In this document: one piece after another, positions 5,994-24,797 of the stretch
Numbering within the stretch: position 1 is the first letter of the stretch
Layout: each line of letters starts with the position of its first letter
IMG/VR virus record: IMGVR_UViG_3300028548_005693
Location: 1 to 24,797 of that record
Strand: one strand, 5' to 3'
DNA from: a virus
DNA: 24,797 nt
Position numbers and translations under genes: made by a program
Notes under the pieces: model-generated
The model's database searches: none
What the model saw: the letters and a program-made list of their open reading frames with translations, nothing else
Told to the model about the DNA's origin: nothing

Positions 5994-6006
5994 GTTTCCT
6001 ATGTTG

Positions 6007-6684: not shown

Positions 6685-9123
6685 TTATTCGTTTAATAAT
6701 GCATTAATTAGTTTGTTTGAACCTTCAGGCAGCTCCTCTCTTTTCCCTTGTCTTTGAGATATAAGTTTGCTTTGGTCGGAGGTTTGTTGATCTAGCCTGT
6801 CGTCTTTACGGGTTTCTTTTAAAACCTCAAGTTTTTCTTTAAACTCTTTATCGTCCTCTTTAAATCCAAGAGTAGCTTGAGCTTTAAGCATTTCAATTTC
6901 TTTAGTAAACTCATGCCTCATTTGCGCCATCTTCATATCGACCTGCGCTTGCATTTGAATTTTTTGAGTGTCAATTTGACCCTGCGCTTGCATTTCAGAC
7001 ATTTTAGCTTGTTGTGCCTGTTGTGCTATTTGACCCTGCATTTTAGCTTGTTGCTCTGAGTTCTGCTGAGCCATCTGCTGCTGCATAGCCATTCTTTTTT
7101 TACGCCTAACAACAAGAAGCCTTTCCGCTTGGTTGATATCTTTTAAACCTCTAACAGCTATAGCGTCTTCTAAATCTAACTCTTGTTGTTGAAGGGCCAT
7201 CTGGATGTTTTGTTCTAGATAAGCCTTATCTTTCTCCTCCATGTCTTTTACAACAACTACCCCAAAGTTGTACATTGGAAGGTCTCTGAAAGAAGCTAAA
7301 GCCTCCATATTTGTGTCTCCGATAGCGTTCTCATATATTTTATATAGAACAGATTCAGTAGGTATAATTTGAATGCATTTAACTATATCCTCACATACTT
7401 TTTTAAACAAAACCATAGCGGCATTTGTTATATCATATATAGCGTTATTACCTGCAGCTATAGCTTGATTTTGAACACCAACTAAAGCATCACCTTTAGG
7501 GGAAGAAGCGTCCATTGCTTCATTGATTCCCGTTGTATCTCTTATTAAACCTAAGTAATGGTTATATAAACCTACAAGTTCATTAATGTTTCTTATGCTA
7601 TTGCTTATCTCTCTAACAGGAGGGTTTTGGAATCCACCTTCGGGGTTTTTACTTCTGTAATAAAAAACACCTGTCTGCTCATATATGTCATGAAGATCTA
7701 AAGGCTGTAGCTCTCCACCTTTTCCTAGCTGTACATTCTCTAATCCTTCTATATCTATAATCAAACCATCTGGTTTGGCTTTTGCTATAGCTTGCTGTAT
7801 CTTTAAGTGAGTAAGCTGAAGCATATCTGCAAATCCCACACAGCTATTTACCATAGATTTTGGCATCATGTTACGGATATTAGTTGCCGTTACAGAATAA
7901 GACAATGTAGCCTTAGATATATCGTGTATATTTTTAGGTACGTTCTTAGTTTTGCCATACCCAAATAAATAATCACAACCTAAAACATAACTTCCGCCAT
8001 AAACAGTAGACACCTCTAATTTATGAGGGGTTCTCTCAAACACACTGTTCTTGTTAGGTTGCTCCTCAAAGCCTTTAAAGTAAAACCCCGTGTTGCCATG
8101 TTTGTTTTCTTTTTCTTCAAAATGAATGCAATCGACAGAAATAAACTCAAAGTCTAAAACCTCAACCATATAATCGTCATATCCAAATGAGGTCTTACCT
8201 AGGGCTTGACTATAGTTGTTCTTATTGTATTTTCCAGAATCATTACCATTTCGGCCTTTAGATTTCTGAGCAATCTTTTTGTAGTCCTCCTCATTTAATT
8301 CCTCTCCAGCTAAACGTTTTAACTCTTGTATAGAGATTTTTTTTATGTGCCCAGCGTATATAAGATCTTCGAAATTAGGGTCTTCTGTGTAGCTATGTAT
8401 AAACATACACGGATCTACATAAGATGTTTTAATGCCTTCGTTTGGATCGTTTGACCTTTTTACTACAGACATACCTAGAGTAGCCAAGTCATTTACACAT
8501 CTTCGGAAAGTATTATCTACGAAGTTATTCCACGTAAGAGTAAGTTCCGTCCCTAGCTGAGCCGATATCTCCCCGTCTGTTTTAACGTTAGTGTCGAATA
8601 AAATCTCCGCTTCTTCTGGTGTATCTGGAATAGAATCTGGATCCATATCTAAAACAACACCCGTCTTATCTTTTAGCTCTTTAAGTTTATCCTTAGAGTC
8701 AACTTGCTTTAAAATCCTTTTCTTTTTTTCATTTTTTTCAGAAGAAGATAAAGGGTCTACCGCTTCTAAATTAGGATAAGGATTAACAGACAATATCTTG
8801 TTAACTACAATTCTTACGAATTTAGGTAGAATAGGGACTGGGGTGTAATCCATATTTAACAAAGCTCCGTCCGCTTTATTTGGATTCAGGGAATTTAATA
8901 GCTGCTTATATATACTTGTATCTTGAACCCCAATAGCATAATCTCGGTCTTTCTCAAAAGTTTTATTTCTCTTACCTACTAAAGAAGAATCGTCCGTAGT
9001 TTTTCCCCATTGAGATTCAATAGCTTTAGCGTACTGAACACCATATTCTTTCTTTTGCTTTAATTCCGTAGATTCTAATGGATCTGGGAAACCCTGCTTG
9101 CTTTTATTCTCGTTATTATACAT
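6685..9123 (-). CDS. Portal protein (812 aa)
   Basis: An 812-residue protein directly after the large terminase gene. The middle and C-terminal parts have portal-like features: a conserved DYTPVPILPKFVRIVVNKIL segment, a long helical region around GLIRDTTGINEAMDASSPKG (the 'G-I-N-x-A' plus polar loop common in podovirus portals), and a helical barrel-like region (AYLEQNIQMALQQQELDLED). Residues about 680-750 are extremely Gln/Met-rich coiled coil (MQQQMAQQNSEQQAKMQGQI), followed by a charged helix and a tail ending ALLNE. Portals form the dodecameric vertex through which DNA is packaged by TerL and ejected. Size and tail fit a podovirus or crAss-like type portal, but the lineage is not settled. 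A TATATTTG box lies upstream. The antisense readings in the Gln/Met region are shadows. Confidence 0.85.
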   Translation of the reverse strand: MYNNENKSKQGFPDPLESTELKQKKEYGVQYAKAIESQWGKTTDDSSLVGKRNKTFEKDRDYAIGVQDTSIYKQLLNSLNPNKADGALLNMDYTPVPILPKFVRIVVNKILSVNPYPNLEAVDPLSSSEKNEKKKRILKQVDSKDKLKELKDKTGVVLDMDPDSIPDTPEEAEILFDTNVKTDGEISAQLGTELTLTWNNFVDNTFRRCVNDLATLGMSVVKRSNDPNEGIKTSYVDPCMFIHSYTEDPNFEDLIYAGHIKKISIQELKRLAGEELNEEDYKKIAQKSKGRNGNDSGKYNKNNYSQALGKTSFGYDDYMVEVLDFEFISVDCIHFEEKENKHGNTGFYFKGFEEQPNKNSVFERTPHKLEVSTVYGGSYVLGCDYLFGYGKTKNVPKNIHDISKATLSYSVTATNIRNMMPKSMVNSCVGFADMLQLTHLKIQQAIAKAKPDGLIIDIEGLENVQLGKGGELQPLDLHDIYEQTGVFYYRSKNPEGGFQNPPVREISNSIRNINELVGLYNHYLGLIRDTTGINEAMDASSPKGDALVGVQNQAIAAGNNAIYDITNAAMVLFKKVCEDIVKCIQIIPTESVLYKIYENAIGDTNMEALASFRDLPMYNFGVVVVKDMEEKDKAYLEQNIQMALQQQELDLEDAIAVRGLKDINQAERLLVVRRKKRMAMQQQMAQQNSEQQAKMQGQIAQQAQQAKMSEMQAQGQIDTQKIQMQAQVDMKMAQMRHEFTKEIEMLKAQATLGFKEDDKEFKEKLEVLKETRKDDRLDQQTSDQSKLISQRQGKREELPEGSNKLINALLNE

Positions 9124-9162: not shown

Positions 9163-11280
9163 TCATCCGATTACTTGATATCTCCTAAAGAATCGTTTTT
9201 CAGACAAGTCAGAAGTCTTTTTAGACTTAGCTTTTTGCGCTCCTAATAGAGCTAATCCAGAGCTAATCGTAAGGTCATATTTAGTTCTATCGTCTATCTT
9301 ATAACCTATCCAATCCTCTAGTGTTTTATTAAAATACATTTTTCCAACATCTCCCGTTTCTCTATTTGTTCCTACATGGTCATGTATAAAGGCCTCTATA
9401 GCATGTGCGTGAGCTTGGATTACATCTTGTGAGTTAGATGGGATACCTTTTGTTTTAGATTTCATTCCGCTAGCGCTGATTAAATGCTTAGGCCTATCCA
9501 TTAAATACCCGTCATACCCTCTGGCTTCAAAGTGCCTTGCGATACCATATTTGTTATTCTCTATTAATATAGGGTAACCATAAAACACAGAGGCCATTAA
9601 AACATCTTCGTAGAATATTTTAGCTAAAGGAGGTCTTGAAGCATACTCTAGTACAAACATGTTGCAAGGGTGCTCCATGTGAAACTTGTTGTATAGATGT
9701 AAGGAGCCTTTTGATCCTCTCCCGTCTACAGTAGCGTCAAGATCATACGAGTCAACTCCACCCACTCCAAAATTTGAATGAGGAGCTACCCTCTTGCCTC
9801 TCTCTGTTTTCTTTTGGTTTCTAAAATCAGGAGGTGGCATCCAGGCAATTTTAAATCTACCCTGAACGTTTGGGCTAAATACTACCTCAGTGTCTTTTAC
9901 CCCTCCTTTCCAGACAAAGTTCCCCGCAACAACAGGGTTAGGAAACAGCTCGTCATTATGCTCTATCTGTTCATAGATCTGCCCGATGTTAAATACACTC
10001 CCTTCTATACTATCCCTAAAGGCTTCGTCTTCCGTAAAGGGGAATTGCCTGACCACTTCGTTTAACTCCGAAGCATCGTTTTTTAAAGAGTCTCTTTCAT
10101 TCTTTAAGAATGTTTTAGCCCCGATATAAATGTACTCGTTATCTATACCTTCTGTAGTATCTATAGGGTCTTCAACTATTGGGTGACCAAACTTATCAAA
10201 GAAACCTTCTAGAGAATTATATGCAGGAATAAAAAGTCTATATAGACCAGTTCTAGTCCTCCCATTCGCGTTCCTCTCCAAAGGATTTGAGTCCTCCCAT
10301 AGATCCTTGTATTGACTTCCCCCTTTGTCCATTGGGTTTACCGTGCTTCCGACCATTGCCTTCCCCACGATTTTTCTTCCGACGATCAAACAAGTCCTCT
10401 GAATCCTCCAAGCGTCTCTTATGTCTGTAGGTCTTTCCCATTTTCCTGCTTCATCTAAATACAACAGGTGTAACTTCTCCCCGTCATATGCGTTATTTGT
10501 TGTGTTTTTCCAATTTATAACCGTGTTCAAAGCTTCCCCCATTTGAGAGGTTTTGTTCTTCTTGGTTATTCTTTTCGATGGCTCTCTAAAGGCCAGCTCC
10601 ATACGCGGATTGGTTGTACCGTCCTGGATAGGCTTAAAAAAGAAAGGGTAGTTTCTAAACATAAAAACAACCTTCTTCATAAATATATTTTCTTGGGCAT
10701 CCTTACCAGTCTTAGACTGAATCCCCATAAGTTTGTCTTTGACTTGCGTCCCTTCGTCTACAAGCACAGATGAACACATATTTGTGTACCCACTACGACG
10801 ACACTTAGTATATAGCTGACCTATACATCTAGGATCAATTTCACACGCCGCTAAGTGTAAGAAGATATCTCTTTGGAAGTTTAAAAAATACGGGTAACCA
10901 ATATCCATCTTGGTCCACTGTATCATCATGTAGTGCCGCCCCGTAATATATGTAGCTGTGCCGTTGTTATAAAACCAAAAACCCTCACGCCTACGCCTAA
11001 ACTCTTCCTCGATATATGGACGAAACCTTGCTCTAAACTCTCGTGGCATTTCCGCCCACTCATCCATAGAACGAATACGAGACAGTTCCTGCGGCATAAG
11101 TACCCTTCCCCACATTTGCATAGAGTTTGGTTCTTTATATCCTGAAATTTCTTTTTTCGGAGGCCTTTTTGGAAGGCAAATGAGTAGCCCACCGAGTTCA
11201 ATAAGCTCACCTTCCGTACCGTTGGGACAAATTTTAACAGCTGGTTCTTCATACTCTTTAACATCTAAAAGTATACTCAA
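9163..11280 (-). CDS. terL: Terminase large subunit (705 aa)
   Basis: A 705-residue packaging motor. The ATPase half has an adenine-binding/Walker A-like segment (QLYTKCRRSGYTNM, residues 155-168), Walker B LHLLYLDEAGKW (Asp276-Glu277) and the coupling motif GSTVNP (311-316). The RNase H-like nuclease half has candidate metal ligands Asp510 (FGVGGVDSYD), Glu574 (ILIENNKYG) and Asp619 (NSQDVIQAHAH). The protein translocates DNA into the prohead through the portal and cuts it. The only sensible start is a TTG at 11280 overlapping the upstream TGA as TTGA, because the next Met is at residue 54, after the conserved-looking DVKEYEEPAVKICPNGTEGE segment. Use of TTG may lower translation relative to neighbours. 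The portal follows after a 39-base gap. Confidence 0.93.
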   Translation of the reverse strand: MSILLDVKEYEEPAVKICPNGTEGELIELGGLLICLPKRPPKKEISGYKEPNSMQMWGRVLMPQELSRIRSMDEWAEMPREFRARFRPYIEEEFRRRREGFWFYNNGTATYITGRHYMMIQWTKMDIGYPYFLNFQRDIFLHLAACEIDPRCIGQLYTKCRRSGYTNMCSSVLVDEGTQVKDKLMGIQSKTGKDAQENIFMKKVVFMFRNYPFFFKPIQDGTTNPRMELAFREPSKRITKKNKTSQMGEALNTVINWKNTTNNAYDGEKLHLLYLDEAGKWERPTDIRDAWRIQRTCLIVGRKIVGKAMVGSTVNPMDKGGSQYKDLWEDSNPLERNANGRTRTGLYRLFIPAYNSLEGFFDKFGHPIVEDPIDTTEGIDNEYIYIGAKTFLKNERDSLKNDASELNEVVRQFPFTEDEAFRDSIEGSVFNIGQIYEQIEHNDELFPNPVVAGNFVWKGGVKDTEVVFSPNVQGRFKIAWMPPPDFRNQKKTERGKRVAPHSNFGVGGVDSYDLDATVDGRGSKGSLHLYNKFHMEHPCNMFVLEYASRPPLAKIFYEDVLMASVFYGYPILIENNKYGIARHFEARGYDGYLMDRPKHLISASGMKSKTKGIPSNSQDVIQAHAHAIEAFIHDHVGTNRETGDVGKMYFNKTLEDWIGYKIDDRTKYDLTISSGLALLGAQKAKSKKTSDLSEKRFFRRYQVIG

Positions 11281-11961: not shown

Positions 11962-13134
11962 TTAGCGAAATATTGTTACAAGCCCTTGCAGCTGGGTGGC
12001 TTTTCCAGACTGAGTCGCGTTAAGCTTCCAAGTATAAACCCCATCAGGGCACAACCAATGTTGAGAAAAACTTGTCCCTGTCCAATAACCCATTGGATCG
12101 GTTATTTCTTTTACAAGCGTCCCCCATCTATTGTATATCTGCATATTCCACGTTAACCAACACGTTGGATCGGTTATTGCATAAAATACATCATTGACCC
12201 CATCATTATTAGGGGTAAAAGTATTAGGAATGAAAATACTGTTATCGTCACAGTCATTAATCCCGCCTCCACCATCTTCACAAGGTAAACCTGTATAGCA
12301 ATCTATATATTCAGTTGAAAATACATATTCAGTAAGCGTTAAAGTATCTGTAACATAAACGTAATTATCTACAACTACGTCTACATACATCGTATCGGTT
12401 AAATAAATATACTCGTATTCAACAAGAGTATCTGTTATATAAACTAATTGTAATAAATATTCTATTATAGTATCTGTTGTTACCCACTCTACATCTATAT
12501 ACTCGATTATTGTATCTGTGATGTACTCGATAACTTCTACGTCTACATACACTGTATCACATGCAGGTAGAGCACAATTAACAACGGTGTTATTAGAAAG
12601 ATCTACGTCAGGGTAGTTCTGCGTTTGGTTAAACCCTGGATTTACCGCCCAACCGCCATCATCTATAAAAGCTGTGCGAGATAGATTAATCTGCCATACA
12701 ACTAACTCAGTACATAGCGTATCGTTAGCTAATACCTCAGTCCAACAATCACTTGTACTTGCCCCTGTATCATAGACATTAGCACTCCAAGTATCCCCAC
12801 TCTCTAGCATTTGATTTCCATAAAGAGTAAAAACTTTAAACGTCCATCCTGGGTGATTGACTCCAGTCAAACAATCCAACCAATTATAATCCAACCCTTC
12901 TACATGCAACCCTAAAACTATTGATGAGACTGTTTCGTTATTAGTTACGTACGGACTAGAGCTATTCTCACACGTATTACCTTCAGTTGTAAATTCATTG
13001 CAACCACAGTTCTCACTGTTAATAGCCTCTATAACAATATCCCCTGTTATAGCATCCCAACTACTTATAGCTACATCGCATTGTGCAGATAGCGTTGGAA
13101 CCCATAAAGCTAATAGATATATTAATTTTCGCAT
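11962..13134 (-). CDS. Secreted repeat protein with type B (gliding-associated) T9SS C-terminal domain (390 aa)
   Basis: 390 residues. Signal peptide MRKLIYLLALWVPTLSAQ. Residues about 19-190 are a Cys/Trp-rich domain I do not recognise. Residues about 193-277 form a degenerate tandem repeat, then a Cys/Gly/Asp linker (CEDGGGGINDCDDN). Residues 300-390 match the CHU_C/type B T9SS domain: FIPNTFTPNNDGVNDVFYAI, MQIYNRWGTLVKE and a final WKLNATQSGKATQLQGLVTI strand pair. Type B domains direct export through T9SS and are typical of gliding adhesins such as SprB and of ice- or polymer-binding surface proteins. The gene overlaps the preceding secreted-protein gene by 13 bases. It is the second T9SS cargo candidate in the window, lying about 6 kb from the type A one. 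Confidence 0.85.
   Translation of the reverse strand: MRKLIYLLALWVPTLSAQCDVAISSWDAITGDIVIEAINSENCGCNEFTTEGNTCENSSSPYVTNNETVSSIVLGLHVEGLDYNWLDCLTGVNHPGWTFKVFTLYGNQMLESGDTWSANVYDTGASTSDCWTEVLANDTLCTELVVWQINLSRTAFIDDGGWAVNPGFNQTQNYPDVDLSNNTVVNCALPACDTVYVDVEVIEYITDTIIEYIDVEWVTTDTIIEYLLQLVYITDTLVEYEYIYLTDTMYVDVVVDNYVYVTDTLTLTEYVFSTEYIDCYTGLPCEDGGGGINDCDDNSIFIPNTFTPNNDGVNDVFYAITDPTCWLTWNMQIYNRWGTLVKEITDPMGYWTGTSFSQHWLCPDGVYTWKLNATQSGKATQLQGLVTIFR
12304..12558 (-). repeat. Degenerate 12-16-residue tandem repeat (TDT-I/L-x-E-Y)
   Basis: Inside the 390-residue T9SS protein, residues 193-277 consist of about six diverged units such as ITDTIIEYIDVEWV, TTDTIIEYLLQLVY, ITDTLVEYEYIYL and VTDTLTLTEYVF. They alternate Thr-Asp-Thr turns with beta-branched/aromatic strands. 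This predicts a beta-solenoid or extended stalk that would hold the N-terminal domain away from the cell surface. Expansion by slippage followed by divergence is inferred. Confidence 0.7.
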
Positions 13135-13484
13135 ACACCGTAGCTTGATAAAAATAATAATAAATCTTGAACGTCTACCGTTCCACTATCATCCAAGTCC
13201 CCAGGGCATGTATCCTCCTGTATGCATGAAGCGTAATTAGGGTGCTCTGTAAGTAACGGGTAGACAAATCCATCTCCGTTTAAAACAAAAGTTGTTCCTA
13301 TGTCTGCACAGTAAATTATAGTATACCCTCCCGCAGGCAACCCAAAATAATGAGACTCCCCATCACAATCTTGATATTGAAAATTAGTCCATTTCTCAGC
13401 TCCTACAGAAGTAAAAACGTGCTGATTGCATTGAGATAGAACAGATACAGGTAACAACAATAAAACAAATAATAATTTTTTCAT
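13122..13484 (-). CDS. Secreted protein with C-terminal EF-hand/dockerin-like loop (120 aa)
   Basis: 120 residues. Signal peptide MKKLLFVLLLLPVSVLSQ, then a Cys-containing beta-rich domain (about 19-88). The C-terminal segment DTCPGDLDDSGTVDVQDLLL contains a complete EF-hand loop: Asp96, Asp98, Ser100, Gly101, Asp104 and Asp107, followed by the helix LLLFLSSYG. This is half of a type I dockerin and is common at the ends of Bacteroidetes secreted proteins, where it binds calcium. A single loop rather than a pair is present. The stop overlaps the start of the T9SS type B gene by 13 bases, so the two products are likely made together and may act together at the cell surface. Confidence 0.75.
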   Translation of the reverse strand: MKKLLFVLLLLPVSVLSQCNQHVFTSVGAEKWTNFQYQDCDGESHYFGLPAGGYTIIYCADIGTTFVLNGDGFVYPLLTEHPNYASCIQEDTCPGDLDDSGTVDVQDLLLFLSSYGVCEN

Positions 13485-13868: not shown

Positions 13869-14158
13869 TACTTAGAAAACCTTTCAGCAAATCCGCCAGA
13901 GTAGTCCTTTATGTCTTTTATATCCCCGCTAACCTCAAGGTCCTTTACCATCTGAGCCAACCTCTGCCTCTCTATAATAAGCTCCTTGCAGTCCGTGGCT
14001 GTTTGCTTTATAGATTGAAGTTCCGCCTTCCGTGCGCTACCGTTTATTTCAGGGTCTACAGGTTTTTTAATCTCTTCGATCATATTATCTATAGCTATCT
14101 CCATGCTATGCATAAGCCTTTTAGATGCACTAGTAGTAGTAAATTTATATTTCGACAT
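13868..14158 (-). CDS. Small helical protein, possible small terminase subunit (96 aa)
   Basis: 96 residues, predicted mostly alpha-helical: MEIAIDNMIEEIKK, then ARKAELQSIKQTATDCKELI and ERQRLAQMVKDLEVS, ending DYSGGFAERFSK. It has no membrane span and no obvious helix-turn-helix. Its size, oligomer-type coiled-coil pattern and place a few genes before terL and next to an HNH gene make it a candidate small terminase subunit. That is positional inference only, since no TerS DNA-binding domain is evident. It overlaps the upstream GroES-like gene by 14 bases and the HNH gene by one base. Confidence 0.65.
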   Translation of the reverse strand: MSKYKFTTTSASKRLMHSMEIAIDNMIEEIKKPVDPEINGSARKAELQSIKQTATDCKELIIERQRLAQMVKDLEVSGDIKDIKDYSGGFAERFSK

Positions 14159-14741
14159 ACATTAGGTCTTCTGCGCGAGTGCGGTAATATTCTACCTCGT
14201 CTATAGTTATACGATAATCTCTGTTTTGTTTAAAGCCTACAATGTCTCCTGGCATAACACCCATCTCGTCAGCCGACTTACATGTATAAGCTACCTCTCC
14301 TTTAGTGGGTAAGGCTTCCGTGAGGTCTACTATCTCTATGAGATCCGACTGAAGTTTTAACTCTTCTTGCTCTACAGATTTCAATAGACACCAGCCTGCT
14401 AAGCAATGTATCTTACCGTCTTTTTGGCTCTTATACGCTATAGCTTGATTCCCAATAGCATTGTTTGGATCGTAAGTAACGATATAGGTGTTGTCGTCTT
14501 CAGTAAAGATTTGACCGCTATTATCTCCACCTAGAACTACTAAGTGGTGAAAGTATAAAGTATCCCCTACTTCCACTCCCGTATCGAACTTAAAGGGAAC
14601 ACACACAACGGGGCCTTCAGTTGTTCGGTTGTCAAAGTCGTTAAACCTTGCGTCTATATGTAGCTCAAATCCGCTATTGGAAGTAATTGTATCCTTAAGC
14701 CTTTTCTCTAGCTTAACGACAAATAGATTAAATGTTTTCAT
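14145..14741 (-). CDS. GroES-like co-chaperonin with extended or duplicated fold (198 aa)
   Basis: 198 residues, twice the usual length of GroES (about 97). The C-terminal half has the co-chaperonin signature, MGVMPGDIVGFKQNRDYRIT, then IDEVEYYRTRAEDLMYVEI, equivalent to the 'vGD-v-f-x-k...i-dg-eyl-i-ree-dIlav' end of Cpn10. The N-terminal half repeats the plan (TEGPVVCVPFKFDTGVEVGD followed by TLYFHHLVVLGG), suggesting two fused barrels or one barrel with a large insertion. Phage co-chaperonins such as T4 gp31 replace host GroES for capsid folding, so a role in folding the missing capsid protein is reasonable. From memory, similar proteins are frequent in uncultured marine phages. The start overlaps the upstream TGA as ATGA. 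Confidence 0.75.
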   Translation of the reverse strand: MKTFNLFVVKLEKRLKDTITSNSGFELHIDARFNDFDNRTTEGPVVCVPFKFDTGVEVGDTLYFHHLVVLGGDNSGQIFTEDDNTYIVTYDPNNAIGNQAIAYKSQKDGKIHCLAGWCLLKSVEQEELKLQSDLIEIVDLTEALPTKGEVAYTCKSADEMGVMPGDIVGFKQNRDYRITIDEVEYYRTRAEDLMYVEI

Positions 14742-17538: not shown

Positions 17539-18015
17539 TTAACTAGCTATAAAGATTTCTATTGTTACTGCGTTAGATCCTGGATCAACAAGTAGTGATT
17601 CCAACTCATGCATTGACACGTCTATGTTTGCATTTGTGTCATTGACAGCTATAGCGTCAATCGTAGCACCCATAACAAAGCTTTTTCCCGCTTCAATAAG
17701 GATTGTAGCAGATTCATCAGCAGCACCATCCCCACCGTCTGTTGTGCCTACTTGTAAAGACAAGTTTACAGGCTGTGTACCTAGATTTGTTAATCTTACG
17801 TATTTTACATCACCAACATCTATACTACCAGCTGCGCTTGTGCTGTCATCTACTGTACTGGCAAACGTTGCTACTGTAGTATCTTGGCTTGCAGGACAAG
17901 TAACGATCCTATGGTATACCTGAGTAACAGAAGCTACAGCAAGAGTGTTTGTAGACCCTCTGTCAGCTCCATTAAGAGTTAGTTCTTCGCTTATAGTTAC
18001 GTTTAAAGTAGCCAT
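17539..18015 (-). CDS. Beta-rich virion-type protein (158 aa)
   Basis: 158 residues, acidic and Thr/Ala/Val-rich, predicted all beta. It begins MATLNVTISEELTLNGADRG, continues SVTQVYHRIVTCPASQDTTV, VKYVRLTNLGTQPVNLSLQV and ILIEAGKSFVMGATIDAIAV. From memory, this pattern ('MATL-x-VTI-x-EELTLNG-x-DRG...VTQVYHR', 'VKY-x-R-x-TN') is frequent in small structural proteins of uncultured marine phages. The architecture echoes the tandem proteins at 1-954. It is a likely virion component such as a decoration or tail protein, but the position is unknown. It starts 3 bases after the preceding stop. Confidence 0.75.
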   Translation of the reverse strand: MATLNVTISEELTLNGADRGSTNTLAVASVTQVYHRIVTCPASQDTTVATFASTVDDSTSAAGSIDVGDVKYVRLTNLGTQPVNLSLQVGTTDGGDGAADESATILIEAGKSFVMGATIDAIAVNDTNANIDVSMHELESLLVDPGSNAVTIEIFIAS

Positions 18016-18018
18016 TTA

Positions 18019-18264
18019 TTATTGCATTCCGCCTCCTTGAGACATTGGAGGTCCACCGCCTTGAGGCATATTCATAGGTAAGTCGCCCATAATAAATCGA
18101 GCTACCTCTTCAGGAGAAAGCTTTGCTTCAGAAGGCATCTGTGATAACATCTCTAATAGTTGATTTACATCAACTGGAGCAGGTTGTTCTGGTCCTCCCT
18201 GTTGTGGTGGCCCTTGCATCTGTCCTTGCGTCTGTCCACCCATATTGTATTTTCTAATCTGCAT
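18019..18264 (-). CDS. Gly/Pro/Gln-rich protein with RKYNMGG motif and MGDLPMN tag (81 aa)
   Basis: 81 residues. The N-terminus MQIRKYNMGGQTQ carries the [RK]-K-Y-x-x-GG motif. A Gln/Gly/Pro-rich stretch follows (QGQMQGPPQQGGPEQPAPVD), then a short helix (VNQLLEMLSQMPSEAKLSPE). It ends FIMGDLPMNMPQGGGPPMSQ plus GGGMQ. The octamer I-M-G-D-L-P-M-N recurs almost exactly (VMGDLPMN) at residues 515-522 of the 1452-residue protein. The helix between two disordered arms suggests a scaffold or linker that binds a virion partner. A TATATTTG box lies 17 bases upstream of the ATG. Confidence 0.7.
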   Translation of the reverse strand: MQIRKYNMGGQTQGQMQGPPQQGGPEQPAPVDVNQLLEMLSQMPSEAKLSPEEVARFIMGDLPMNMPQGGGPPMSQGGGMQ

Positions 18265-18280
18265 AACTCTTTATTTTTTA

Positions 18281-18288
18281 CAAATATA
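18281..18288 (-). promoter_or_regulatory. Candidate flavobacterial -7 box (TATATTTG)
   Basis: TATATTTG on the minus strand in the 29-base gap before the 81-residue gene, ending 17 bases before its ATG. A TTG lies 15 bases upstream, shorter than the usual 17-23 base spacing to a -33 element. It is identical to the boxes at 974-981 and 9150-9157. Confidence 0.45.
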
Positions 18289-18293
18289 ATATA

Positions 18294-18440
18294 TTATCCG
18301 CTACAACTTTCACAGTCTTCTGGGGAGTCCGTATTGCATACCGTCTCTCCAGACTCTATTTTAGCCTCTTGCTCTTTAAGCTTCTTTTGGTCTAGAAAAG
18401 ACGGAGAAGGTAGGTCGAAATTGTTGTCAGGTTTAGTCAT
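18294..18440 (-). CDS. Small protein with C-terminal cysteine cluster (48 aa)
   Basis: This short gene fills an otherwise unexplained 168-base gap. The ATG at 18440 overlaps the last 8 bases of the lysozyme-like gene and the frame ends in TAA at 18294. The product begins MTKPDNNFDLPSPSFLDQKK, is acidic and Lys/Glu-rich in the middle, and ends with Cys at 35, 43 and 46 (TVCNTDSPEDCESCSG). The C...C-x-x-C arrangement is a possible metal site. Length and overlap are typical of this operon. Function unknown. Confidence 0.6.
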   Translation of the reverse strand: MTKPDNNFDLPSPSFLDQKKLKEQEAKIESGETVCNTDSPEDCESCSG

Positions 18441-19059
18441 TTGGGAATATAGGTTGAAACGCAGGGCCTACATCCTTTCTGGGGTTGCCTGTGCCTTCTT
18501 GGTTATCTAAAGTGTGCTTAAAAGATTTTACGCGGGTCTCATAATCTTTATCAAAATTACCTTTCCAGTGACCTTTTGCCCATTGATCTGCCCATTGAGA
18601 CTGGTCCGTTAAAACTGTAGAAACTAAGGAATTTTCATCTCTAGCGAAATGGGCTGTAAATAGAAGGTCCTGTAGCTCAGGGGATACCTGATCCATATTC
18701 TTAAATTGCTCCTCCGTCATAGCAGGGAGTGAATACCCTCTTTCCTTAGCTATCCATTTAGCTCTCGTATAAGCGGTTTGGGCGGACTCAGCATCAAACT
18801 GGTATTTACCCTTTCCTGTAGATAGCTTATTAGGATCACTTTCGTTTTGTATCGCAGAATAACCGTTTATTCCTCCTTCATGATTCCCTACAGTATATCT
18901 GAATTCAGAGAATTTATAAGCAGGCCTTTCAACTTTACTATTTAATATCTCGTCTAGAACCTCCGTTGTGAGCTCCTCATGTGGGTGACCTGGTCCTTTT
19001 CCTCCCTCATGGAACTTCCTTACCCTCATCCCTGGAGGTGTTGATCTGCGTATATTCAT
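18433..19059 (-). CDS. Virion lysozyme/transglycosylase-like protein with GG-motif leader (208 aa)
   Basis: 208 residues. The start at 19059 overlaps the upstream TGA as ATGA. The leader MNIRRSTPPGMRVRKFHEGG then KGPGHPHEE carries the same N-terminal motif as the 1452-residue protein. The core at about 50-150 looks like a lysozyme-superfamily muramidase: a candidate catalytic Glu61 in VGNHEGGINGYSAIQNES, then STGKGKYQFDAESAQTAYTR (the GKYQF segment is typical of transglycosylase/lysozyme domains) and SPELQDLLFTAHFARDENSL. Encoded beside the putative ejection polyprotein, it probably cuts peptidoglycan during DNA entry rather than at lysis. No signal peptide is present. An ordinary endolysin is the alternative. 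Confidence 0.75.
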   Translation of the reverse strand: MNIRRSTPPGMRVRKFHEGGKGPGHPHEELTTEVLDEILNSKVERPAYKFSEFRYTVGNHEGGINGYSAIQNESDPNKLSTGKGKYQFDAESAQTAYTRAKWIAKERGYSLPAMTEEQFKNMDQVSPELQDLLFTAHFARDENSLVSTVLTDQSQWADQWAKGHWKGNFDKDYETRVKSFKHTLDNQEGTGNPRKDVGPAFQPIFPND

Positions 19060-22000
19060 CTTATAGACTTAAGTATTAAATCTCTTTGCCCTTTAGTAAA
19101 CTTATTACTCATGAACTTCATTAACCCTTTCATATTATTAGTAGGAGAAGGTATATTTTTTAATTGAGAAAGTATCTCTTCAAACGAAAGATTAAAGTCA
19201 ACCCCTTGTTCTTTTGCAGCATTTACCCCTGTATTTAATACAGCTTCATATTCTTGCCCGTTACTTAAAACATACTTACCAGCTTTATCGAACTTACTGT
19301 CGTCAACTATGTGTTTCCCCGTAGTAAGCTTTCTATAAGCTTTTCTCATTGCGGGGTCTTGTATCCTTGCGTCATGATCGTTATCCATTCTGTAAGCTAA
19401 ACGCTGTAAAGGTCCGTATTGAGAAGCATGCACTTGCTCATGCTTAAGAGTGTCGGGATCTTCGCCATCCCTATACATAACTATCTCCTTTTCTTTTGGA
19501 TCGTATGCCCCCAAGGTTGTAGGTTGATCGCTAGCCAGTACATCTAAAAGCTCTGAGGTCCTAGCCTGTCTAACAGGAGTTTTATCTATTCTGCGTTCCG
19601 ATCGTCTCTCCCTTAGCTTCTCAAACAAACCTCCTTCATCGTATAAGGACTTCTTGATCTTCATTCCTTTCTTAGCAAAATACCCTAACGCACCACCAGC
19701 AACCGCGCCTATAGCGGCCCCCCAAGGTCCGAGCGCCATTCCAAGCTTAGCCCCCTGAGCGGCACCTTGTAAGGCTTTTTGATGTTTTTGCCGCTTCTTC
19801 TCATCCTCAGTTAAAGACACCTCCCCAGCCTCTTCTTGAGCGTCCATAGCGTTTTGTTCGGGGATGAGGTTTGGATCCTCTAATTCGTGCACGCTTGGGT
19901 TCTTAGAGGTATATTCTGTATCGAAGTTTCCGCCAGTTCCCCAGCCACCTACGCTTCCACCTGCCCCGTACTTTTTAACAAGGCCTTTTAATGCTTTCCC
20001 ACCTTTCTTATAGGTTTTAATCTCCGATGGGGGGAGTGATATATCGTTTTGAAAGAAGTTTTCTGGGATTTTAACACGCATCCAAGTGTTGCCATGTATA
20101 TCTGTTACTTGCTTAACATCCGTACCGAACTCACTCCTCCATAGCTTAGGGAAGTTCCTGTAGTTTTTCGTTACGGACATCTCAGACTCACTTATCTTAG
20201 AGAGATCAAAACCTTTAGCGTTTATCTCATCTATTTTCTTTTGAGCCTCTTTAAACTTTGTTATATCCTGTTTTGCTTTTATTCCAACTTCTGCTTTAAC
20301 CTTTTTTATGTAAGCGATCAACTCTTCTTTTTGATTTATTATTTCTGGTGTAATCGGATCGGCATATGAATCCTTTCTCACTTCCCGCTGATATCTTCCA
20401 AGGACATCCATTTTTCTCCTAAGGTCTAGGTACATATCCTCAAAATCCGAACCTTTACCTAACTTATTAAATGTACCTATAGTTGCTGGCTGATTCTTTT
20501 CAATACTATTGATTAATTGATCGTAAATTACCTCTTTCTCTTTAACTTTTGTATTTATTATTTCATTAAGACCTTTGTTCGAAAGTGTACTTTTAATCTC
20601 TGATATTATATCTTCTGTCTCACCAAAGCTTCCTTGGCCTATTTGCATTAAGGAATTATCATATTCTCTAAGTATATTATATTGCGGGGTAATTAAAAGG
20701 TTTAACTCAGCGTTATTCGGCTTTGCCCACCCTTCAATAGTAAATACCGTTTGCGCCGTAGGCACGTCTAGGTACTCCATCCCCTGCCTTGCAGCGTCTA
20801 ATAAGGACTCGTTTACAAACTTAAGAGGTAGGCCTTTTGAGTTAGCTTTAGAGAGGTTTGTAGGTTTCACTCTGGCGGCTAAGGCTATCTCTAATCCTTT
20901 TTCCATTTTAGCTAATTGAAAAGCATGACCTATTGAGAAGTTAGAATTGCCGTAGTCAGTTTTTAATGAGTTTATTTGTTGTTTAAATAGGCTAATCTGT
21001 TGCTCTAGACTAAACGTTGCATGGGGATCACCATTAAAGTATTCTCCGCCTATATTATCAGGGTAGTAATCAATAGCTTCTTCGGAACTAGCCCCGCCTT
21101 TTGAAGGGTTTTTTAAAACCTTTACATCCGTTTGCCACTCTAAAGCTTTTAATACATTAGGTTCCTCTGCGGTAACCATACTCCTTATCCAGAAGCTATG
21201 AGGTTGGTCTGGGAAATGACCCTCCCCCTCTTTCGTCAACCCTAAAGATTTATCTTTATAAAGGTTGGTTTTTGCTGTAGCATTAGCTGGATCCCGATCG
21301 GGGGGAGTTTCACCAAATAACTCATAGTTAGGATCTCGCTCCGTAACGGTTTCATACCCTAAGCTTCTCACTCCTGTGTCAGCATAGCTCGCTTGGCCCG
21401 TAGTAGGTATAATCTCTGCAGAACGTATATCTAAAGCCAGAGACTGCTTGAAGCTACCATACGGTATCCTCTTACCTTCGAACTCCCCTAAAACATCCTC
21501 AATAGCCAAAGCTTCACTAGGCTTAGTGTTTTTATTTTTTACTAGCTGCTCTAATATAGTTCTAGATATAGTCCCGTCTTTAGCCGATACTTGCCCCTCT
21601 AGTTTACTCCCCGTCATAAACGATGGGTATTGGTATACACCAGAGTTATAGTTACTTGCAAACCAATAAGCTGGATCTGTTTGTGGGTTTCCTATCTCAG
21701 CTAAGTTCTCTGAAGCTACATTACTCTCCTCATAAGGGTTACTAGGCTCATACTTCTTTCCTTTCCCCTTCCCTTTTACTTTAGGTGGTGCTGGTTTAAT
21801 AGCTAGTTGTGCGTCCCCTGTTAACTGCTGTAAAGGAGAAGCAGGTATATTCATAGGGAGATCCCCCATGACTAAAGGTGTAGAAGCGGTCTCAGTGGTA
21901 GCCCCTAGTAACCTACTACCCCGAAACTCTTGAGTTAATGTATTAAGTGCGGGTCTACGAAGCTCTTTTGCAGCCCCAAGTAACGTCCTACCCCCCATAG

Positions 22001-23414
22001 GAGCCATAGAAAGGAATAAAGCCTGTAGCCCAGCATCAGACATATTCCCCATAATCTTAGATAAATCCCCAGGAGAAAGGCTTCCATCCTCCATCCCGCT
22101 TAATAAGGCCTCATCAGCCGCAGTAAGAGAAGAATCTACACCCTTAACAGCCTCTATATAGGCTGCTGGATTGAACATAGAGGTAATACCATCGTATATA
22201 TTGTGCTTCTGAGAGTCTAACTCCGCTTGAGTAGGTCTCGTGAACCCATTCTTGCTGATATGCTCCCACACCTGCATAGGATTAGCTAGTATAGTACTCC
22301 AATCCGCCTTCTTTACCTCGTCAAACTCAGATAAACGATCTTCTCTAGGTGCATCTATTAGCCCTATTAAAGGATTATTGTCTGTAAGGCCAGGTATTAC
22401 TGGTGCAGTATACCCAGCTGGATGCGGATGTCCTGGACCTTTCCCACCTTCATGATATTTTTTAATAAGGTTCTTTAATGCCCCCCCTTCGTTAAAGCTT
22501 GCTTTTATTCGTGTGGGGTTTCGGATTCTATTTTCTTGTTTATAACGTTCTATCTCCTCAGGCTCTATTTCCCTTCTAAGGTACTTGTTTTTTTTCTCAC
22601 TCCAAACCATATCGTGGCTAGGGATCTGCTTCGTTCTTACACCCCCCCAACCCTTCATTACCCTCTGAGTTGGGTGCTTAGGGCCTTTATATATAGATAC
22701 ATTACTTTCTTGTAATTCTTTTGAATCTAGATCTACTGTTGTGACTCTAGGCTTAAGGAGCCCTAAAAGAGGCTCTTGCTCCCGTTGCTCCGCTGGAAAA
22801 AAACCTTTAGTAAATTTTTTATAAGCTTCTTGTTCGCTTATTGGAGGTTCTGGATTACCAGCCCCCCAGTGGATATTATCATATAAAGGAACATTAACTA
22901 CATCCCCCCACCTAACTCTACTATAATAACTTTGTTGCGCAGTAGGACTTATTCTTGGATTATATAAAATCTTAGGGAGGTCTTCATTTATCCAGCGAAC
23001 ATCACTTTCACGACTTAAAAAAGTGCCATCATCATTATATTCACGATCCATAAGAGTATTACGTTCAATGGATTCTAGTCGCTCCTCTTCTAATTGTTTT
23101 TTATAACTCTCTATCTTCTTTAATACTGCTTCTTGTTTATCTTCAGGGATTTTATGTTTGTTCCCTTCAAACCATTTTTCTGTTTCCTCTAATAACTTCT
23201 TAGTGAACTCAAGGTTTTCTTCGTCTGTTTTTGATGAAGCGTCACCCCCTTTCTCTAAATCCCCCGTAAGTACATAGCCCTGTCTTAATAACTCATCAAT
23301 CATTTTCTGGCTACTGCTTATAACATCCAAGCTATCCTGCTTTGTGGAAGCTTTATTAGAGTGTGGGTGGCCTGAGCCTTTCCCCCCGTTATGATATTTC
23401 CGTACTCTAGGCAT
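19056..23414 (-). CDS. Large multi-module virion protein/polyprotein with LPD-like region, glycine zipper and HExxH peptidase motif (1452 aa)
   Basis: 1452 residues, the largest gene and first of the leftward transcript. It divides into three modules at a repeated motif. Module A (1-311) opens MPRVRKYHNGGKGSGHPH and is unrecognised. Module B (312-1139) opens ALKNLIKKYHEGGKGPGHPH. Its 740-1120 part resembles regions in large polyvalent phage proteins (ESLLDAARQGMEYLDVPTAQ, then KLWRSEFGTDVKQVTDIHGN), as I recall them. Module C (1140-1452) opens ALKGLVKKYGAGGSVGGWG, has a glycine-zipper hydrophobic stretch (LGMALGPWGAAIGAVAGGAL, about 1224-1243), another GG motif at 1258-1262 and a zincin-like site, KHEQVHASQYG (His1325-Glu1326-x-x-His1329). 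A membrane-active segment, a peptidase and an adjacent muramidase fit DNA-ejection proteins. Processing at the GG motifs is my inference. The start is the ATG at 23414. Confidence 0.8.
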   Translation of the reverse strand: MPRVRKYHNGGKGSGHPHSNKASTKQDSLDVISSSQKMIDELLRQGYVLTGDLEKGGDASSKTDEENLEFTKKLLEETEKWFEGNKHKIPEDKQEAVLKKIESYKKQLEEERLESIERNTLMDREYNDDGTFLSRESDVRWINEDLPKILYNPRISPTAQQSYYSRVRWGDVVNVPLYDNIHWGAGNPEPPISEQEAYKKFTKGFFPAEQREQEPLLGLLKPRVTTVDLDSKELQESNVSIYKGPKHPTQRVMKGWGGVRTKQIPSHDMVWSEKKNKYLRREIEPEEIERYKQENRIRNPTRIKASFNEGGALKNLIKKYHEGGKGPGHPHPAGYTAPVIPGLTDNNPLIGLIDAPREDRLSEFDEVKKADWSTILANPMQVWEHISKNGFTRPTQAELDSQKHNIYDGITSMFNPAAYIEAVKGVDSSLTAADEALLSGMEDGSLSPGDLSKIMGNMSDAGLQALFLSMAPMGGRTLLGAAKELRRPALNTLTQEFRGSRLLGATTETASTPLVMGDLPMNIPASPLQQLTGDAQLAIKPAPPKVKGKGKGKKYEPSNPYEESNVASENLAEIGNPQTDPAYWFASNYNSGVYQYPSFMTGSKLEGQVSAKDGTISRTILEQLVKNKNTKPSEALAIEDVLGEFEGKRIPYGSFKQSLALDIRSAEIIPTTGQASYADTGVRSLGYETVTERDPNYELFGETPPDRDPANATAKTNLYKDKSLGLTKEGEGHFPDQPHSFWIRSMVTAEEPNVLKALEWQTDVKVLKNPSKGGASSEEAIDYYPDNIGGEYFNGDPHATFSLEQQISLFKQQINSLKTDYGNSNFSIGHAFQLAKMEKGLEIALAARVKPTNLSKANSKGLPLKFVNESLLDAARQGMEYLDVPTAQTVFTIEGWAKPNNAELNLLITPQYNILREYDNSLMQIGQGSFGETEDIISEIKSTLSNKGLNEIINTKVKEKEVIYDQLINSIEKNQPATIGTFNKLGKGSDFEDMYLDLRRKMDVLGRYQREVRKDSYADPITPEIINQKEELIAYIKKVKAEVGIKAKQDITKFKEAQKKIDEINAKGFDLSKISESEMSVTKNYRNFPKLWRSEFGTDVKQVTDIHGNTWMRVKIPENFFQNDISLPPSEIKTYKKGGKALKGLVKKYGAGGSVGGWGTGGNFDTEYTSKNPSVHELEDPNLIPEQNAMDAQEEAGEVSLTEDEKKRQKHQKALQGAAQGAKLGMALGPWGAAIGAVAGGALGYFAKKGMKIKKSLYDEGGLFEKLRERRSERRIDKTPVRQARTSELLDVLASDQPTTLGAYDPKEKEIVMYRDGEDPDTLKHEQVHASQYGPLQRLAYRMDNDHDARIQDPAMRKAYRKLTTGKHIVDDSKFDKAGKYVLSNGQEYEAVLNTGVNAAKEQGVDFNLSFEEILSQLKNIPSPTNNMKGLMKFMSNKFTKGQRDLILKSIR
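19428..19442 (-). other. HExxH zinc metallopeptidase motif
   Basis: Residues 1325-1329 of the 1452-residue protein read HEQVH, within DTLKHEQVHASQYGPLQRLA. The helix context and following polar residues are typical of gluzincin/metzincin-type active sites, and the 'HE-x-x-H-x-x-Q' form is similar to DUF4157-type domains. A third zinc ligand is not certain; Glu/His/Asp residues 15-30 positions downstream (DNDHDAR) are candidates. Confidence 0.6.
19953..20018 (-). repeat. Duplicated GG-motif junction, module B/C boundary
   Basis: Residues 1133-1154 of the large protein contain two GG motifs in tandem: KTYKKGGK followed by ALKGLVKKYGAGGS. The layout [YF]-x-x-GG-x-ALK-x-L-[IV]-KKY-x-x-GG is shared with residues 307-324. 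The flanking sequences differ completely, so this is a repeated junction element rather than a duplicated domain. Confidence 0.7.
22419..22502 (-). repeat. Duplicated GG-motif junction, module A/B boundary
   Basis: Residues 305-332 of the large protein: SFNEGG, then ALKNLIKKYHEGGKGPGHPH. The second half matches the N-terminus of the same protein (RKYHNGGKGSGHPH) and the leader of the lysozyme-like protein (RKFHEGGKGPGHPH). It looks like a gene start that has been fused in frame to the previous module. Confidence 0.7.
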
Positions 23415-23418
23415 GAGA

Positions 23419-23426
23419 CAAAGATA
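23419..23426 (-). promoter_or_regulatory. Candidate -7 box TATCTTTG before the 1452-aa gene
   Basis: The minus-strand octamer TATCTTTG fits TAnnTTTG and ends 5 bases before the ATG at 23414. If used, the transcript would be almost leaderless. A similar ATCTTTG plus four bases precedes the possible rightward ATG at 24549, so the element might instead be a translation-start signal. No convincing -33 element is visible. Confidence 0.3.
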
Positions 23427-23626
23427 ACTAAAAGGCCTTTATAGTATAACGTTTAAAAAGGCTTAGAAACAACCGAACATAACAAGGGCATATTCCACTT
23501 CCAATACTCGATCAGTCTCTTATAGACTCGCTCTCGTATACAAAACAAAATATTTCGGAAGTTATACACGGTGAACGCTAATATGCTGCTAAGGTACCAC
23601 TTTTTTTTTGCAAAGTCAAGTCTAAT

Positions 23627-23712
23627 GTAAAGGTTTAAGTAAAGTAAGGTAAACGTCACGTAATCAAGGAGTTAAGGGATTTGACTCAAGTAAGGGTTTA
23701 AGTGAAATAAAG
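23627..23712. repeat. Imperfect 23-bp direct repeat, two copies 63 bp apart
   Basis: Copies at 23627-23649 and 23690-23712 share GTAA-R-GGTTTAAGT-R-AA-R-TAA, with 19 of 23 positions identical. All four differences are A/G transitions. They lie in the non-coding region ahead of the large leftward gene and could be regulator-binding sites. Confidence 0.5.
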
Positions 23713-24001
23713 ACCCTCCTAATAAAAAACGGGAGAAAAGACGCCAAAAGACTATACCTGGAAAAAAATTGGAGAAATGTTTAGATCGGGGATTATCTAT
23801 ATTGTCAGGCGTTGGATTCCTAAAACGAAATTCACATTTTTTAACGCCCCCCATTTGCATTTTCAACATTTTTGCCGTATATATTCAGCTTTTCAGTGCA
23901 ATCAATTGACAATCAATAACATACAAGGCATCATCTCAACGTATACTCTAGGTATTCAATCGTATGTCGTTTTGTTATAGCTACTTAGAGGAAGGGGACA
24001 A

Positions 24002-24030
24002 TTGACATCCCATTTTCTCCCTTATATAGA
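24002..24030 (+). promoter_or_regulatory. Sigma70-like promoter, rightward
   Basis: TTGACA at 24002-24007, a 17-base spacer, and TATAGA at 24025-24030 closely match the general sigma70 consensus. This would drive rightward transcription toward the gene at 24549 through about 500 bases of repeats. The element differs from the TAnnTTTG boxes seen ahead of leftward genes, so early and late promoters may differ in type. Confidence 0.45.
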
Positions 24031-24053
24031 ATCATTCTAAATAGAGTACATAC

Positions 24054-24065
24054 AACATTAATGTT
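24054..24065. repeat. Perfect 12-bp palindrome AACATTAATGTT
   Basis: AACATTAATGTT is identical to its reverse complement and lies about 24 bases downstream of the sigma70-like promoter. It could be an operator for a dimeric repressor. Confidence 0.45.
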
Positions 24066-24092
24066 ATGCTTCGACATTGTTTGTATAAGGTT

Positions 24093-24112
24093 ACTAACAC
24101 TGCATTGTTAGT
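24093..24112. promoter_or_regulatory. Near-perfect 20-bp palindrome, candidate operator
   Basis: ACTAACACTGCATTGTTAGT has 18 of 20 symmetric positions (arms ACTAACA/TGTTAGT around a CTGCAT centre). Spacing of its half-sites, about one and a half to two helical turns, suits a winged-helix dimer, and the phage encodes such a protein at 16240-16662. A link between the two is speculative. Confidence 0.5.
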
Positions 24113-24140
24113 CGTTCGTAACTACGTCTAAATCAATCAC

Positions 24141-24170
24141 TTACAAATGTATTCAAATGTTAACAAATGT
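24141..24170. repeat. Three 10-bp tandem iterons (nnnCAAATGT)
   Basis: TTACAAATGT, ATTCAAATGT and TAACAAATGT follow each other at exactly 10-base intervals, putting CAAATGT on the same face of the helix. A further AACAAATGTTAA lies at 24281-24292, and a reverse-oriented near copy (AACGAATGTTAA on the minus strand) lies at 24489-24500. The phasing suggests cooperative protein binding at an origin or operator. Confidence 0.6.
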
Positions 24171-24249
24171 TATAACGATTTTAAGCCATTCTGAGGCACT
24201 TTCTCGACGTTAGTGATGTTATAGTATAGATGATGTCTTTAAACGCTTA

Positions 24250-24480
24250 CTAACTGAGTATCAATGAGTTACGATATACTAACAAATGTTAATTCCTAAC
24301 TGCTTGGTTATCAATGGTTTATGATTAGGTTTCAGGAGAAATGTTTTGCACGCGCGCGTATGTATGCGTATGTGCGGGATTCCATTACGGCTAAAAGAAA
24401 GCTCAGCTCAAAATCGTGTAACTTATTGGTTTTCAGTCAGTTAGCCTATTATACGACTCAACTCATTGATAATCAGTTAG
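24250..24480. repeat. Long inverted repeat, 21-bp arms with 20/21 identity
   Basis: The left arm at 24250-24270 (CTAACTGAGTATCAATGAGT plus T) matches the reverse complement of 24460-24480 at 20 of 21 positions; the 189-base loop is too long for a terminator. A third, weaker copy in the left-arm orientation lies near 24297-24320 (CTAACTGCTTGGTTATCAAT). Together with the CAAATGT iterons this marks a multi-site binding region. Confidence 0.6.
24347..24376. other. 30-bp alternating purine-pyrimidine tract (potential Z-DNA)
   Basis: From 24347 to 24376 every base alternates pyrimidine-purine without exception. The tract includes CGCGCGCG and later TATGTATGCGTATGTG segments. Such tracts can form left-handed Z-DNA under negative supercoiling. 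It is GC-rich at its start within an AT-rich region and lies inside the loop of the long inverted repeat. Confidence 0.6.
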
Positions 24481-24548
24481 TTACAATTTTAACATTCGTT
24501 AACAGAATTTATTAGGATATCCGAAAGTGATGCCCCCATCTTTGCAAT

Positions 24549-24761
24549 ATGAATAACGAAGTAACATACAAAGACACAATCCTTTACGACAAGCGACGAA
24601 GGTCAGCGGGGCTTATGTCAGTCAAGCGTAACAGCCTGAGAAAGCAGAGCGACACACAACATAAAATTCACGCTCAGATTTGCAGGATATCGGACAGAAT
24701 AGAGCGCAAGGATGACCGACGAAATAAGAGAAACGCCCGAAAGAGGACGTTGACAAGATAG
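24549..24761 (+). CDS. Possible rightward basic coiled-coil protein (70 aa)
   Basis: A 70-residue frame beginning MNNEVTYKDTILYDKRRRSA and continuing LRKQSDTQHKIHAQICRISD into RIERKDDRRNKRNARKRTLT. It is highly basic and helical with no recognised domain. It is the only plausible gene in the right-hand part, reads away from the late block, and would be the first gene of a rightward (early) transcript. No Shine-Dalgarno is visible; ATCTTTG lies just before the start. A GTCCG-CAAGTA-CGGAC hairpin lies 6 bases after the stop (24767-24782), without a T-run. Composition is a little more GC-rich than its neighbours. It could be spurious. Confidence 0.4.
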   Translation: MNNEVTYKDTILYDKRRRSAGLMSVKRNSLRKQSDTQHKIHAQICRISDRIERKDDRRNKRNARKRTLTR

Positions 24762-24797
24762 AAAACGTCCGCAAGTACGGACAGAATACATAGGATT

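Follow-up and report, generated by a model that had tools for sequence, protein, structure and literature searches.

The window analysed here is the whole of a virus record of 24,797 bp, which is probably a fragment of a phage genome. Its main genes run leftward up to position 23414 and the next reading frame, encoding 70 amino acids, runs rightward, with a divergent, non-coding stretch of 1,134 bp between the two blocks, hereafter the control region. The genes and the control region are placed as follows.

6685–9123, minus strand: portal protein gene, by family match
9163–11280, minus strand: terminase gene, by family match
14145–14741, minus strand: gene for a GroES-like protein, by family match
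19056–23414, minus strand: gene for a 1452-aa virion-type protein, first of the leftward block, flanking the control region
23415–24548, no strand: control region, divergent and non-coding, between the leftward (virion) and rightward (small-gene) blocks
23589–23619, minus strand: candidate Bacteroidota-type promoter of the leftward block, TTG-N20-TAnnTTTG with one mismatch in the downstream box
24549–24761, plus strand: gene for a 70-aa basic protein, first of the rightward block, with a homologous frame in the relative L004

The 1452-aa protein has a partial match to phrog_6056, an internal virion protein (E = 3.6e-7), and profile searches of PHROGs and Pfam found no family match for the 70-aa protein. 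The contig ends 36 bp after the 70-aa gene, which cuts off the right-hand neighbour genes; in L004 and a second relative, L005, further small genes continue in the rightward direction. By analogy, the leftward block would be the late one and the rightward block the early one. The nearest record by terminase is MW202828 (49%), and the 100 records with a terminase match include 68 Flavobacterium phages, at 39% in the rows listed, and 15 Cellulophaga phages. Because the matches are mostly to phages of these two genera, we infer that the window belongs to a phage of Bacteroidota. Neither the DNA of positions 18000–24797 nor the 1452-aa protein has a match in the phage collection, no tRNA was found in the window or in five relatives, and the window, L004, L005 and a third relative, L007, have no match in Rfam.

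We aligned the control region with those of L004 (89% identity to the window), L005 (88%) and L007. The last is the most diverged relative and aligns in two pieces at 70–74%, with 66% identity when the full alignment is taken without the strong dyads described below. An earlier reading made from the sequence alone had called 360 bp of this stretch non-coding, and the stretch does lie between genes, and the reading frames of 64–68 aa inside it are not kept as such in L007. A leader-sequence pattern scan and an N-terminal profile scan yielded no new relatives. The candidate promoter at 23589–23619 follows what we take to be the Bacteroidota-type consensus; it is kept in L004, L005 and L007, contig L011 carries a perfect match in the equivalent position, and the same scan of the window gave three other one-mismatch candidates. 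The leader of the leftward block contains, following the candidate late promoter, a 26-base block (23533–23558) that recurs without change in L007 and was found in only four viral contigs, all of them already-known relatives. Another block, like GGGGATTATATATA, is conserved at 23788–23805 in the window and at about 1508–1523 in L007 though its surroundings hardly align, and it occurs also at about 9615–9640 in L011 and about 19425–19451 in contig G041, where it runs into a GC-rich alternating stretch.

The 25-bp dyads and the IHF consensus

The control region carries about seven copies, four strong and three weak, of a 25-bp dyad with the pattern YAA-N4-YTGAT-W-ATCAR-N4-TTR. They are listed here with the other sequence elements that lie among them.

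23650–23674, no strand: weak 25-bp dyad, 11.7 bits, 3 mismatches, adjoining the late promoter candidate
23899–23923, no strand: weak 25-bp dyad, 14.5 bits, 2 mismatches
24119–24143, no strand: weak 25-bp dyad, 14.1 bits, more than 3 mismatches to the two-sided consensus
24144–24170, plus strand: three CAAATGT units with a 10-bp period, starting at 24144, 24154 and 24164
24247–24271, no strand: 25-bp dyad, 26.4 bits, 2 mismatches
24280–24291, no strand: palindrome TAACAAATGTTA, holding a fourth CAAATGT; second copy at 24161–24172
24297–24321, no strand: 25-bp dyad, 23.1 bits, 1 mismatch, paired with 24247 at a distance of 50 bp
24347–24376, no strand: 30-bp perfectly alternating pyrimidine–purine tract, Z-DNA-prone, between the two dyad pairs
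24419–24443, no strand: 25-bp dyad, 25.2 bits (L007-only model), 2 mismatches, paired with 24459 at a distance of 40 bp
24459–24483, no strand: 25-bp dyad, perfect two-sided IHF consensus, both halves WATCARNNNNTTR

The sequence-only reading had seen part of this family. The inverted repeat that it reported is found as 24249–24270 with 24460–24481 (95% over 22 bp), the related third site is present at 24299, and its view that such repeats are not random is borne out by shuffles, which reject chance. Its limits of 360 bp hold sites that exist, but they are too narrow for the family, which also occupies 24119, 23899 and 23650.

Dyad 24459 is the only perfect two-sided site, with no mismatch to YAANNNNYTGATWATCARNNNNTTR, and none such arose in 200 shuffles of the window. 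A model built solely from L007 finds 7 sites in the control region of the window, with 0.03 expected, and one extra site at 4410, inside a gene, which we take as chance. The three weak dyads are recognized mainly by their conservation. Dyads 24119 and 23899 each have a counterpart at corresponding spacing in L004, L005 and L007, the former a weak one, and one half of dyad 24119 (24131) is a perfect IHF consensus, as is one half of dyad 23650 (23662). Dyad 23650, with three mismatches, does not stand out from chance when only the two-sided consensus is considered, shuffles reaching 1.5 such sites per 24.8 kb; it is included on the strength of L004 and L005, where its spacing is unchanged or nearly so.

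The order and distances of the dyads are conserved as well. Successive spacings are 249-220-128-50-122 bp in the window and 249-220-128-50-121 bp in L004, whose seven dyads lie within 1 bp of the spacing in the window except that the outer pair is 62 bp apart instead of 40. L005 has seven dyads (259-221-128-50-131) and L007 has eight, the comparable ones at 220-138-51-106. Between the window and L007, the consensus positions of the four strong dyads are identical at 56 of 68, the N4 positions at 22 of 32 and the rest of the alignment at 667 of 1010, a modest difference between the dyad consensus and its surroundings. The parts of L011, MW202828 and Elemovirus that were covered contain no strong dyads. 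When up to two mismatches to the two-sided consensus were allowed, 10 of 26 records (the window plus 25 relatives by terminase) had a match, but in 4 of these 10 a reversed control matched as often.

The dyad is the IHF consensus WATCARNNNNTTR written on both strands around one shared centre. PMC8421141 and PMC9820253 give this consensus, in which 9 bp separate the two bends and an A-tract frequently lies opposite, and the former describes E. coli IHF sites as one-sided, often with the A-tract on the other side. Matches to WATCARNNNNTTR number six in positions 23415–24548 (0.207 expected) and zero in the other 23.7 kb of the window; the counts inside the control region and elsewhere are 6 versus 1 in L004, 5 versus 3 in L005 and 6 versus 1 in L007.

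Matrices made from the dyads recover some known IHF sites and miss another. One was built from the phage dyads and the other, the MAG matrix, from 139 core-anchored sites of the Bacteroidota metagenome-assembled genome (MAG) Prado074. Over the 48,478 positions of phage lambda, the MAG matrix ranks H′ 1st, H2 13th and H1 34th and the phage-dyad matrix ranks H′ 3rd, H1 11th and H2 334th, H1, H2 and H′ being, as we take it, the names of lambda's IHF sites. Column-permuted versions of the phage-dyad matrix never equalled the real one on H′ and H1 jointly (0 of 2,000, and 0 of 1,000 with 5-nt shifts). In phage Mu, both matrices rank positions 935–959, between c and ner, 1st; this is presumably Mu's IHF site. 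The attP of P22 is ranked high by neither. PMC5847225 describes the Mu enhancer element as bent by IHF.

A close known counterpart is H′ of lambda attP, a site of E. coli IHF, which has the same 25-bp register with two mismatches to the two-sided consensus and is the top lambda match of the MAG matrix. In H′, however, an A-tract replaces the second half, whereas both halves of the dyads here follow WATCARNNNNTTR and the sites are near-symmetric, as would fit a dimer that reads both halves alike. A text search with two core 11-mers, judged by titles and abstract openings and with subscription journals mostly outside its reach, found no literature on this palindrome.

Dyads beyond this phage group

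The same dyad is found in bacterial genomes. In 55 loci (within L138–L213) of the Microscillaceae MAG Prado074 (JALONJ01), there are 401 dyads of at least 16 bits in 371 kb; these loci were chosen for holding a dyad, which inflates the density and affects the flank pattern less. Around 125 TTGATWATCAA cores in these loci, a set from which cores within the search pattern were left out, the flanks are A (94%), A (92%) and T (82%) at −10 to −12, and positions −9 to −6 are less strongly biased, the highest value there being 64% T at −8; this is the spacing of IHF. Five control palindromes occur 0–4 times in the same loci. Prado074 also has 21 distinct neighbouring dyad pairs 44–47 bp apart, many of them in surroundings that look similar by eye. 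A strict dyad pattern, run over 84,980 genomes, gave 76 stretches, 73 of them Bacteroidota by record title and 55 from Prado074; the 21 outside Prado074 comprise 18 with Bacteroidota titles, two from Lentisphaeria and one from Omnitrophota.

In viruses, a broad dyad scan gave at least 120 loci. A further dyad lies within 800 bp in 49 of the 120 listed, as against 1 of 120 shuffles, and 16 have two or more further dyads, with 11 groups by shared sequence. The 71 loci without a second dyad nearby may be chance matches, and the spread of dyads seen in viral contigs is a lower bound. A synthetic consensus query against the phage collection returned mostly short matches of weak E-value.

We then asked which proteins accompany the dyads. 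Beside the 11 viral clusters, 107 of 128 neighbouring ORFs of at least 100 aa were scanned, 21 being left out as shorter or doubtful ORFs, with one long one in L071. Among the 25 most frequent families per library (of 54 and of 140, from contig pieces only), no regulator family recurs widely in these 107 proteins: HNH endonucleases lead, with three members in Pfam and in PHROGs, and the sole regulator-like family listed is a sigma factor with two members. The early proteins of the relatives (ten per library in two libraries, the sets differing) include no convincing DNA-binding family. PF00216 has matches in all four dyad-bearing bacterial genomes searched and none above cut-off in 26 virus records; PF18291 has matches in three of the four, Prado074 being the one without, and in none of 11 virus records. 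Because these families occur in the dyad-bearing bacterial genomes and above cut-off in no virus record, a host protein would be the simpler guess for the reader of the dyads. Prado074, the MAG with the most sites, has just two poor PF00216 matches, one of them with a stop. The largest dyad cluster seen, of 12 sites, is that of L087, and its contig (G023) has a match to PF00216, the HU/IHF family, below cut-off at 13254–13424, possibly a phage-encoded reader.

The alternating tract and the CAAATGT units

Between the two pairs of strong dyads, the tract at 24347–24376, which the sequence-only reading passed over, alternates perfectly between pyrimidine and purine for 30 bp. It is the longest such run in the window, where the next longest is 12 bp, and in 300 shuffles the longest run was 20 bp (mean 13.5). 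As in Z-DNA-forming tracts, the long alternation is rich in CG and CA/TG. Its counterparts in L004 (30 bp), L005 (29) and L007 (22) are likewise placed between the dyad pairs, and in the latter two the alternation is kept with many letters changed.

Outside these relatives the picture is mixed. Judged by eye, opposed gene blocks enclose the longest runs of L011 (19 bp), G041 (19 bp), MW202828 (34 bp, in the 41.9 kb covered) and G054 (28 and 22 bp, with the flank GGAATCCCGC in common), the runs of L011 and G041 being part of another element. In G034 (17 bp) and G038 (19 bp, TA only) the longest run occupies a different divergent boundary from that upstream of terminase, and in G039 (20 bp) it is found 78 bp beside another boundary; G032, G033 and Elemovirus have nothing comparable. 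A rule that places the junction upstream of terminase worked in just 6 of 14 contigs. Rule-placed junctions hold a distinct longest run in L011 only; that of L216 holds a 12-bp run tied with others, the runs of G054 lie about 260–510 bp beside its junction, and L004, which is without terminase, has its run inside its boundary. Conservation of the tract is firm within the window's own subgroup, and the evidence beyond it is only suggestive. In MW202828 (L012), positions 8110–8260 form a CG/TG-rich stretch of roughly 150 bp with alternating runs of 34, 16 and 15 bp, near a change of gene direction in a phage that is otherwise AT-richer.

The three CAAATGT units, which the sequence-only reading had reported, do lie exactly 10 bp apart. 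No 7-mer of any kind formed a triple at spacings of 8–12 in 3,000 order-1 shuffles of the 1,134-bp region, and exact copies of CAAATGT number four on both strands, with 0.29 expected. Of the two additional copies reported, only one (24283) is present in the region as an exact copy. The units were to be looked for in relatives: L004 and L005, at 88–89% identity, keep two of the three and L007 keeps none, and with the triple absent there CAAATGT iterons were dropped as the main feature. The GC-skew analysis likewise proposed does give a cumulative minimum inside the region, at 23556, but gene orientation flips there too and could by itself be the cause, and 5 of 14 contigs differ. For the window, L004 and L005 this minimum falls within the control region, and for L216 within the stretch that corresponds to it; it is about 50–900 bp outside the junction in L007, L011, L012, G032 and G038, and far from it in G033, G034, G039, G041 and G054.

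Interpretation of the control region

We consider it probable, on sequence evidence, that the control region is an IHF-type array, bent by a host protein of the HU/IHF family, that organises the divergent promoters and possibly an origin. In this arrangement, two close dyad pairs would flank the Z-DNA-prone tract, with three weaker sites extending as far as the candidate late promoter. A dimeric DNABII protein, most likely the host's, would bend the DNA sharply at each dyad, and the bends would fold the control region into a compact complex. The two gene blocks, firing outward, would leave the DNA between them negatively supercoiled, and the alternating tract could take up the underwinding by going left-handed. 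Fold and supercoiling together would set how strongly the late promoter candidate (23589–23619) and the early side fire, and the same fold may aid initiator loading, if an origin is present in the region. The early regulatory region of Mu offers a likeness in its IHF-type site between divergent phage genes; there a single strong site stands against about seven dyads here, and no repressor gene has been identified here. A further parallel would be Bacteroides host factor A, a DNABII protein of the HU family from a Bacteroidota host, which the mobile element CTnDOT reportedly uses.

The cooperative binding that the sequence-only reading envisaged, by a phage initiator or regulator, survives as a region with many sites for regulation or organisation, in which dyads and spacing are conserved and which lies between opposed gene blocks; an initiator acting on iterons is not supported, because the CAAATGT triple is not kept and it is the IHF consensus, along with two classical sites of IHF, that the dyads match. 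The array and the Z-prone tract together seem to explain the region better than an iteron origin does. It is still conceivable, if rather doubtful, that the region is a replication origin, with the CAAATGT units (and TAACAAATGTTA) as initiator sites and the dyads as accessory bending sites. The three units at about one helical turn, unmatched in shuffles, resemble the short repeats of iteron origins in phages and plasmids, the skew minimum lies in the region or its counterpart in four contigs, and IHF-type sites do occur in origins, oriC being named in PMC8421141. Here, however, there are just three units, of which one is lost in L004 and L005 and all in the distant L007, and the skew, confounded by gene orientation, has its minimum outside the junction or elsewhere in ten contigs.

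The symmetry, clustering and pairing of the dyads near promoter candidates, and the similar clusters in other viral contigs, would also suit an array of operators for a homodimeric repressor or activator encoded by the phage, with a site that resembles the IHF consensus by coincidence. We regard this as unlikely, given that a bacterial MAG carries scattered copies of the dyad, that matrices made from such dyads recover the IHF sites of lambda and Mu, and that the families listed include no regulator common to the genes beside the 11 clusters. The dyad pairs of Prado074, with their many similar surroundings, could point to a dispersed palindromic repeat (REP/BIME-like) of Bacteroidota genomes that phages acquired, but the copies in the phage relatives differ in sequence and keep their order and spacing, which makes such an origin of the sites very improbable. 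Scarcely credible, finally, is a recombination region, attP-like or of another kind, that contains IHF-type sites: attP of lambda does hold three of lambda's four WATCARNNNNTTR matches, but no integrase family was found among 20 window ORFs (PHROGs) or 10 (Pfam), a search that the loss of the right-hand genes leaves short of decisive.

Returning to the probable array bent by a host protein, a broader proposal can be made tentatively: Bacteroidota and their phages may share a code in which a symmetric, probably homodimeric, IHF-like protein reads a 25-bp palindrome, and in the present phage group the array and the Z-DNA tract may act as a supercoil-sensing hub where the two opposed gene blocks meet. 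One-sided IHF sites are known from E. coli; a palindromic, two-sided IHF-like code in Bacteroidota and their phages would be new. If true, it would give Bacteroidota a sequence-specific DNA bender with predictable sites, and dyad clusters would mark control regions in uncultured phages; the palindrome is clustered in viral contigs and, by one strict pattern, almost confined to Bacteroidota among bacterial genomes. The alternating tract, in which the alternation is kept rather than the letters, would offer a case in which selection on Z-DNA in a phage can be put to the test.

Outside the control region, the protein encoded at 3990–6032 in the window has a Por secretion C-terminal sorting domain, and that at 11962–13134 has a host-secretion-like end similar to it, by eye only. 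Among the small early genes, a hairpin of GTCCG, a short loop and CGGAC is repeated, with no match in Rfam and with loop letters that vary between relatives; it lies at 24767–24782 in the window, at 95, 702, 1081, 1489 and 2154 in L004, at 698, 1183, 1412, 1640 and 2344 in L005 and at 265 in L007.
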